This document shows, piece after piece, positions 47,166 to 48,371 of a stretch of 64,000 nucleotides of DNA. The DNA lies in the NCBI RefSeq assembly GCF_024758505.1, contig NZ_CP077970.1, positions 2,294,001-2,358,000 on the forward strand, written 5' to 3'. The notes under the pieces were generated by a model. The model was not told the origin of the DNA and searched no databases. It saw only the letters and a list, made by a program, of their open reading frames with translations. The position numbers and the translations under genes are program-made. Position 1 is the stretch's first letter. Each line of letters begins with the position of its first letter. This stretch comes from Bradyrhizobium arachidis (GTDB lineage Bacteria > Pseudomonadota > Alphaproteobacteria > Rhizobiales > Xanthobacteraceae).

Positions 47166-48371
47166 ATGTCCAAAGAGAAGTTCACGCGCCTCAAGCCCAA
47201 CTGCAACGTTGGCACGATCGGCCACGTGGACCATGGCAAGACGACGCTGACGGCGGCGCTGACGAAGGTCTCGGCCGATCATGGCTGGGGCGCGTTCGTC
47301 TCCTATCAGGACGTCGCCAAGGCGTCGGCTGCGCAAGGTACGCGCGACGACTCGAAGATCCTGACGATCGCGACAAGCCACGTCGAGTTTTCGACGGCGG
47401 CGCGGCATTACTCGCATGTCGATTGTCCGGGCCACGCCGATTATGTGAAGAACATGATCACCGGCGCGGCCCAGATGGACGGCGCGATCCTGGTCGTCTC
47501 CGCCGCCGACGGGCCGATGCCGCAGACGCGCGAGCACATCCTGCTTGCGCGGCAGGTCGGCGTGCCGCGCCTCGTGGTGTTCCTGAACAAGTGCGATGTG
47601 GCAGATGATCCCGAGCTGATCGATCTCGTCGAGATCGAGGTGCGCGATCTGCTGTCGAAGTACAAGTTCGACGGCGACAACGCGCCGGTCATCCGCGGCT
47701 CGGCGATCCAGGCGCTGCGTGGCGAGAGCGGTCCGCTCGCGGATCAGGCGATCCTGAAACTGTTCGAGGCCCTCGACAACTATATCGAGGTGCCAGAGCG
47801 GGCGAAGGATCGTCCGTTCCTGATGCCGATCGAAGGCGTCCAGTCGATCTCCGGCCGCGGCACCGTCGTGACCGGGCTGATTGAGCGCGGCACCGTCAAG
47901 CTCGGGGACGAGGTCGAGATCGTCGGCCTCGGCGAGAGCCGCAAGTCGGTGGTGACGGGCATCGAGACCTACCGGAAGATCCTCGATCAGGGGCAGGCCG
48001 GCGACAATGTCGGGTGCCTGCTGCGCGGGATCGATCGGGATGTCGTTCAGCGGGGCCAGGTGCTGTCGCGGCCGGGAGCCGCGACCCCGCACCGGACCTT
48101 CCGCGCGGAAGTGTACGTGCTGACGAAGGACGAGGGCGGGCGTCACACGCCCTTCTTCGGCAATTATCGTCCGCAGTTTTACTTCCGCACCGCCGATGTC
48201 ACCGGCACTGTCCGACTGGGTGATGGCGTCGAGATGGTGATGCCGGGCGACAGCGCCGAGCTCACGATTGAGCTCAACAAGGCGATCGCGCTCGAAGAGC
48301 GGTCGCGCTTCGCGATCCGTGAAGGCAACCGCACGGTCGGTGCCGGAATCGTGACAGCGATCATGGAGTGA
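47166..48371 (+). CDS. Divergent EF-Tu paralogue with altered switch I
   Basis: The 401-residue protein is EF-Tu over its full length, with three domains. The P-loop GHVDHGKT (19-26), DCPGH (86-90), NKCD (141-144) and GSA (178-180) are intact, so GTP binding is expected. Switch I differs strongly: where EF-Tu has EEKARGITI, this protein has [10 protein letters not shown] (59-68), with about five extra residues and loss of the Arg-Gly pair; the following Thr is kept. TGRVERG is TGLIERG. It stands alone, away from rpsL-rpsG-fusA, so it is probably not the main factor. Possible roles are a specialised or stress elongation factor. Confidence 0.9.

Follow-up and report, generated by a model that had tools for sequence, protein, structure and literature searches.

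A 64-kb stretch of a Bradyrhizobium genome, hereafter the window, carries a second, divergent EF-Tu gene (tuf paralogue, P0001; Table 1) that was apparently acquired from an EF-Tu lineage with an alternative switch I loop, the nearest known members of which are of Hyphomicrobiaceae type; the acquisition is suggested by the grouping of the protein in a tree. Sequence comparison indicates that the paralogue's own novelty is a set of ten fixed amino acid changes, and not the loop. We tentatively read the gene as encoding a conditionally expressed spare EF-Tu that would tolerate inhibitors blocking aminoacyl-tRNA binding. The paralogue would represent a divergent second EF-Tu from Proteobacteria that differs in its origin, has an alternative effector loop and is preceded by a conserved RNA leader, and no earlier description of a second EF-Tu of Bradyrhizobium was found in the open-access literature.

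The paralogue protein scored 638 bits against the NCBIfam EF-Tu model TIGR00485 (cut-off 522.4), which places it within EF-Tu, and its score of 164 bits against SelB was below the cut-off of 242. The GTP-binding motifs, NKCD among them, were intact, as the sequence-only reading of this DNA had stated, and none of the 120 paralogue proteins departed from H19, T61 and H84 (residue positions of the paralogue are given in E. coli mature numbering). The product is apparently a functional EF-Tu, but a dispensable one. It had also been seen correctly that TGLIERG replaces TGRVERG in domain 2, which corresponds to E. coli R230 changed to leucine, and that switch I departs from the canonical EEKARGITI by its loop sequence and five extra residues. 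The alternative loop type was common to all 120 listed database relatives (the best 120 of 8000 scored), indicating that the loop difference is not due to chance. In the AlphaFold model of the protein (mean pLDDT 83), switch I (53-70) had a pLDDT below 50, and the loop is therefore not interpretable from the model.

Table 1. Features of the tuf paralogue and its leader, and remnants of the gene in other genomes (window positions unless a locus is named).
Feature	Position	Strand	Description
tuf paralogue P0001	47166..48371	+	401-aa EF-Tu, ATG start, alternative switch I, altered aminoacyl pocket
Promoter-like boxes CTTGCA-17 bp-CTATTT	46889..46917	+	left edge of conserved block, read by eye
Possible leader peptide frame	46958..47041	+	27 codons + stop
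Anti-Shine-Dalgarno ACACCTG	47051..47057	+	9 nt past small-frame stop; full 7-mer in 27/29 copies
Shine-Dalgarno region CAGGTGT of tuf paralogue	47156..47162	+	invariant in 29/29 copies
Terminator-like hairpin	48375..48400	+	12-bp perfect stem, short T-run
tuf paralogue remnants	L214 (G044) about 3045-3133; L215 (G048) within 3-1448		3' gene pieces

The host genome, a single contig of 9.43 Mb, gave ten translational-GTPase matches, two of which exceeded the EF-Tu cut-off: the paralogue and a housekeeping copy at 4125417-4126604 (G000:C1:4125417), 67% identical to it. The housekeeping gene is located 1.7 kb downstream of a match that scored as EF-G (fusA), and encodes the ordinary EEKARGITI loop and an ordinary pocket. 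The two proteins have the family and the GTPase motifs in common, but differ in the loop, the pocket and the EF-G neighbour. The codon usage score of the paralogue was 0.63 compared with 0.57-0.65 for seven ORFs of the window, indicating usage like that of ordinary window genes; the score of the housekeeping gene (0.77) is inflated, because the preferred codon set was derived from that gene itself. The same genome has a second EF-G-like gene (G000:C1:7871776-7872171, minus strand), a 686-codon frame in which a 132-aa piece scored best as EF-G. Co-occurrence of this gene with the paralogue was considered and rejected, since the 132-aa piece was matched at 91-100% in 58 of 58 Bradyrhizobium genomes, comprising 29 with the paralogue and 29 hand-picked genomes without it.

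The sequence-only reading took switch I to be a rewritten loop. This did not hold, as the loop is an inherited form of another EF-Tu lineage: all 15 EF-Tu genes found in 11 genomes of other groups had an alternative loop, and rewriting in place was rejected on these grounds. In a survey that kept the best 80 loci of at least 596 matching stretches, with one genome per species and a sample biased towards the query, 13 loci had a non-canonical loop, namely two Bradyrhizobium paralogues, nine loci with R-R-D-x-T-K-I-(L/M)-T and two shorter relatives. The nine loci were from Hyphomicrobium, two Candidatus Saccharicenans, Sedimentisphaerales, a second Planctomycetota, Acetothermia, Kiritimatiellaeota, Nitrospira and one further MAG. 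The paralogue fits the switch I pattern R-D-x-[TS]-K-I-x-T with five extra residues, which places it in the alternative-loop lineage. No canonical EF-Tu was seen in the genomes of the 11 alternative-loop loci, most of which are MAGs and possibly incomplete. Some alternative-loop genes were present at usual tuf places, directly after an EF-G gene (L027 and L075) or just upstream of nusG (L014 and L023). On the question raised earlier, whether the same loop occurs in an organism's only tuf gene, the answer was no for the host genome and yes for other organisms. No published description of the alternative loop was found in the open-access literature, including the available portions of PMC4342817, PMC3444138 and PMC5770160. 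A third, shorter loop type, R-D-x-T-K-T-V-T, was observed in Pirellulales (L049, 6001-7200) and Myxococcaceae (L079, 6001-7194).

The origin of the paralogue was examined in a tree of 110 EF-Tu proteins that excluded the loop columns, included no EF-Tu3 and had many weak forks. Twelve Bradyrhizobium paralogues and 16 Hyphomicrobiaceae-type proteins formed one group (SH-aLRT 100), and Bradyrhizobium housekeeping tuf formed its own group within Alphaproteobacteria (97), apart from the paralogue. Here, Hyphomicrobiaceae-type refers to the EF-Tu of a Hyphomicrobium MAG (L013) and its database relatives, few of which are assigned to a named taxon. The placement of the paralogue inside or beside these proteins was weakly supported (78); the stem of its clade was long (0.46), and the tree implies five or more changes of loop type. 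Hyphomicrobiaceae-type EF-Tu (R-R-D-x-T-K-I-L-T) have the same loop length and type as the paralogue and 72-76% identity to it (five compared), but retain D216, F218, R230, F261, T335 and G380 in 120 of 120 proteins, positions at which the paralogue is changed. An alternative-lineage EF-Tu may thus have been acquired by Bradyrhizobium, changed rapidly and then been conserved. Only EF-Tu of that type (two copies) were found in the one Hyphomicrobiaceae-type genome checked. In Bradyrhizobium the paralogue coexists with an ordinary tuf, which shows that a genome can maintain EF-Tu of two lineages that differ in their switch I loops. In the L013 MAG, the two alternative-loop EF-Tu (one at 6001-7206) are identical and one lies 1.8 kb from an EF-G match, and the core tuf gene of this alphaproteobacterium appears to have been replaced by that of another lineage.

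When the entire unit served as a DNA query, the paralogue was detected in 29 of the 265 Bradyrhizobium genomes, as 30 copies with 86-100% identity; the match ranked after these had 73%. In a family sample of 198 genomes, 187 of them from 46 other genera, the best match in those genera was 75%, and the paralogue was not found there: the 11 best matches all had the ordinary loop in this DNA search, which more diverged copies could escape. Within 1.3 kb of the 29 copies, the flanks fell into 8 left groups and 12 right groups with no constant neighbour, while the stretch bounded by the promoter-like boxes and the hairpin stayed similar. When 98 Bradyrhizobium genomes were searched with the left flank of one context, G044 and G048 proved to have this flank followed by 3' remnants (Table 1) and no intact gene, indicating that some of the absences are losses. 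One genome (G014) has two paralogue copies (L121 and L122) about 156 kb apart on one contig; they are oppositely oriented and their flanks are 99% alike, which could be due to recent duplication of a large segment or to the assembly. In the collections searched, a plasmid-borne form was sought and rejected at the DNA level (75 records, identities all 60-80%, coverage of the query below 80% in each) and at the protein level (86 records, none above 80% identity, the best listed 65%), and so was a phage-borne form (77 protein records, none above 80% identity). A Shewanella baltica plasmid, pSbal03 (L250, 16.8-kb record), has fusA, tuf, secE and nusG aboard.

The patchy occurrence, the remnants and the long stem would suit a decaying or neutral copy acquired horizontally. 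However, dN/dS over 406 pairs had a median of 0.149 and a maximum of 0.287, all 29 genomic copies were intact with 401 aa, the loop and pocket states were nearly fixed in 120 proteins, and the last 60 bp of the leader were conserved. The tuf paralogue is under purifying selection, and decay, which we regard as very improbable, is largely refuted by this selection across the genus. The expectation of a separate, conserved clade under purifying selection was borne out, as the clade has a median dN/dS of 0.15 and its own leader.

To define the changes that are specific to this clade, 120 paralogues (the best of 8000 matches; P0140, of 517 aa, was dropped before the counts) were compared with three further sets of EF-Tu: Hyphomicrobiaceae-type (120), other alternative-loop (10) and canonical (69). 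Twenty positions were fixed in the paralogues and unlike both canonical and Hyphomicrobiaceae-type EF-Tu (canonical conservation at least 85%). At 97% conservation over 199 EF-Tu, ten changes remained: H11N, R58T, A77S, P200E, D216G, F218Q, R230L, F261Y, T335A and G380N. Of the 120 paralogues, 114 had D216G (S in 5, D in 1), 118 had F218Q (M in 2), 119 had R230L (R in 1), 119 had F261Y (H in 1) and 118 had H11N (H in 2), and T335A, G380N and A77S were present in all 120. The states at 216, 218, 230, 261, 335 and 380 were identical in the 29 genomic copies. D216G and F218Q sit in the amino-acid pocket, and we take positions 230, 261 and 335 to be in or near the elfamycin site or this pocket; the other half of the ten positions (11, 58, 77, 200 and 380) is outside the aminoacyl/elfamycin site. 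The residues L120, Q124, Y160, G316, Q329, A375 and E378, presumably kirromycin resistance positions, were wild type in the paralogues. G257S, which together with R230 we assume to be a known resistance position, was found in 73 of the 120 paralogues; among the 29 genomic copies, 19 carried it and formed one clade. The copy in the window retains G257, and G257S was also present in 1 of 10 other alternative-loop proteins. The two pocket changes and those at the putative elfamycin-site positions fit both drug tolerance and altered specificity.

Once in Bradyrhizobium, the alternative-loop EF-Tu would have been altered in its pocket for the aminoacyl end of the tRNA. A changed aminoacyl-tRNA preference, in which loss of the D216 charge and the F218 ring opens the pocket to bulky, acidic or misacylated aminoacyl-tRNAs, is one explanation. 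The available text of PMC6386890 gives the pocket residues as H67, E216, D217, F219, T229 and N274 (Met-inclusive numbering); two of these six engineering residues are changed in the paralogue, compared with 6-10 changes among 114-195 near-invariant columns (P about 0.03). The same text describes EF-Sep (D217G/F219Y) and EF-pY (E216V/D217G/F219G), both made for phospho-amino acids, and their D217G and changed F219 correspond to positions 216 and 218 of the paralogue. The pocket has also been engineered for selenocysteine, according to the part of PMC4150793 available. The laboratory variants differ from the paralogue in that they also alter E216, and EF-Sep also H67, T229 and N274; the paralogue is unchanged there (H66, E215, T228 and N273 in 120 of 120). 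The window has no tRNA gene within its 64 kb, and the lack of a constant neighbour among the 29 copies likewise speaks against this explanation, which we consider unlikely. Slightly less probable still is its extension, a natural EF-Tu that would deliver a special class of aminoacyl-tRNA under the control of a leader sensing ribosome position, as a proteobacterial counterpart of SelB without a special codon signal. If a change in specificity were true, the paralogue would be a natural version of an engineered EF-Tu.

In favour of a tolerance of inhibitors, the altered region coincides in part with the site at which elfamycins of the GE2270A/pulvomycin class bind. Against it, GE2270A hardly enters Gram-negative bacteria. 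The suggestion of a specialised factor or an elfamycin-tolerant copy is plausible, but the reason lies in the pocket and in the changes that we place in the elfamycin site, of which TGLIERG had been caught by the sequence-only reading, and the loop is not the reason. As far as the accessible texts go, pulvomycin and GE2270A bind the cleft of domains 1 and 2 (PMC10653918) or mainly domain 2 (PMC11085428), GE2270A is placed on domain 2 only (PMC9529903), and one resistant EF-Tu copy suffices for drugs of this class (PMC6685928). An EF-Tu of Nonomuraea that RGI labelled elfamycin-resistant has G257S and lacks the changes at 216, 218 and 230.

An EF-Tu of Streptomyces sp. BHT-5-2 (L251, 2.8-Mb replicon), which we take to be Tuf3-like, has D216N, F218L, R230A and T335A, that is, changes at four of the five site positions of the paralogue. 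As judged from this one sequence, it resembles the paralogue as a divergent second EF-Tu changed at 216, 218, 230 and 335, but differs in a canonical-length EEAARGITI loop and in extra changes at 160, 262, 273 and 275. With 195, 172 and 114 near-invariant columns, depending on the threshold, L251 was changed at 40, 31 and 18 columns, and the Bradyrhizobium changes at positions altered in both were 4 of 10, 4 of 9 and 3 of 6 (P = 0.12, 0.057 and 0.049, respectively); in domains 2-3 alone, P was 0.044, 0.02 and 0.021 for this one sequence. The positional overlap is suggestive, being borderline and not decisive. A Streptomyces plasmid tuf gene was also tried as EF-Tu3 and turned out to be of enterobacterial type. 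This EF-Tu (L249:3001-4185, Streptomyces sp. NBC_01471 plasmid) has F218Y, and its listed matches include Streptomyces subrutilus (91%) and Enterobacter cloacae (90%) entries.

In the available part of the survey PMC4342817, the actinomycete EF-Tu-like subfamily is the only one described as clearly distinct, and it is stress-expressed and antibiotic-resistant. The tuf3 gene of S. coelicolor is stress-expressed and its product is less active yet resistant to GE2270A; when extra tuf3 was expressed, two of the three promoters brought no appreciable gain in resistance, and the third brought a gain of about fourfold together with slow growth (PMC12309360, in part). The gene belongs to the WblC antibiotic regulon according to the text available of PMC7157823. 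The paralogue may be viewed as analogous to Streptomyces EF-Tu3, family kinship being a separate matter. The stress expression of tuf3 in the portions seen of PMC4342817 and PMC12309360 would also agree with a general starvation or stress EF-Tu that has no drug role and whose changes lower or tune activity under stress, and the leader and the ordinary codon usage fit conditional expression. Such a factor would not by itself explain the changes in the aminoacyl pocket, and we hold it to be somewhat unlikely. The inhibitor-tolerant spare EF-Tu is the likeliest of these readings but a tentative one, because half of the changed positions lie elsewhere in the protein, the placing of 230, 261 and 335 at the site is presumptive, and the results of tuf3 overexpression were mixed. 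If the tolerance is true, the paralogue would provide a natural, conditional route round antibiotics that block the ternary complex, and would represent convergence with antibiotic producers.

Expression of such a spare EF-Tu would probably occur only under translation stress, and the leader may contribute to this. The length of 436 bp given earlier is the full gap to the ORF ending at 46729; about 280 bp of this gap are conserved, and the gene does have a leader of its own. The mean pairwise difference decreased from 0.57 (46866-46885) to 0.23 and 0.17 (46886-46925), rose to 0.42 in a variable stretch (46926-46945), and was at most 0.18 thereafter up to the paralogue. The promoter scan did not flag the boxes at this left edge. 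The difference was 0.133 over the last 240 bp and about 0.05 in the last 60 bp, compared with 0.052 and 0.038 at codon positions 1 and 2 of the paralogue (0.183 at position 3), indicating that the last 60 bp are conserved about as much as codon positions 1 and 2. No known RNA family was found in the leader (two sub-threshold matches were both outside it), and no second copy of the leader was found in the genome, the next best match being 31 nt at E 0.1.

The small upstream frame was open in 29 of 29 copies, with 26 or 27 codons and whole-codon indels only. Its pN/pS was 0.98 in the 17 copies with 26 codons and 1.25 in the 12 copies with 27 codons, and the corresponding values of the two other frames were 1.05 and 1.07 (26-codon set) and 0.75 and 0.61 (27-codon set). 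A ratio of about 1, like or above that of the other frames, means that no protein-level selection was seen, and translation of the frame is putative. In the consensus fold, all seven bases of the anti-Shine-Dalgarno paired with the Shine-Dalgarno region of the paralogue in 27 of 29 copies, and six of these pairs were formed in every copy; an AGG-containing stretch upstream of the small frame paired near the frame's stop with one covarying pair (U-A in 17 copies, C-G in 11, broken in 1). Covariation in the leader was slight, with double changes in 3 of 61 pairs and a covariation term of -1.98 of -76.7 kcal/mol. Of 200 shuffled versions of the window's leader, 198 folded less well than the leader itself (z -2.7). 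When a ribosome footprint was imposed on the fold of the window's sequence only, as an illustration, a ribosome inside the frame favoured pairing of the Shine-Dalgarno region and a ribosome at the end of the frame relieved it. The leader is a possible translational attenuator, in which the position of the ribosome on the small frame would decide the pairing of the tuf Shine-Dalgarno. Downstream, the terminator claimed for the gene corresponds to a hairpin that does follow it, although this hairpin has only a short T-run and no terminator was reported by the scan. Each of the 29 copies was predicted to have a stable hairpin 3' of the gene, with energies of -20 to -37 kcal/mol.
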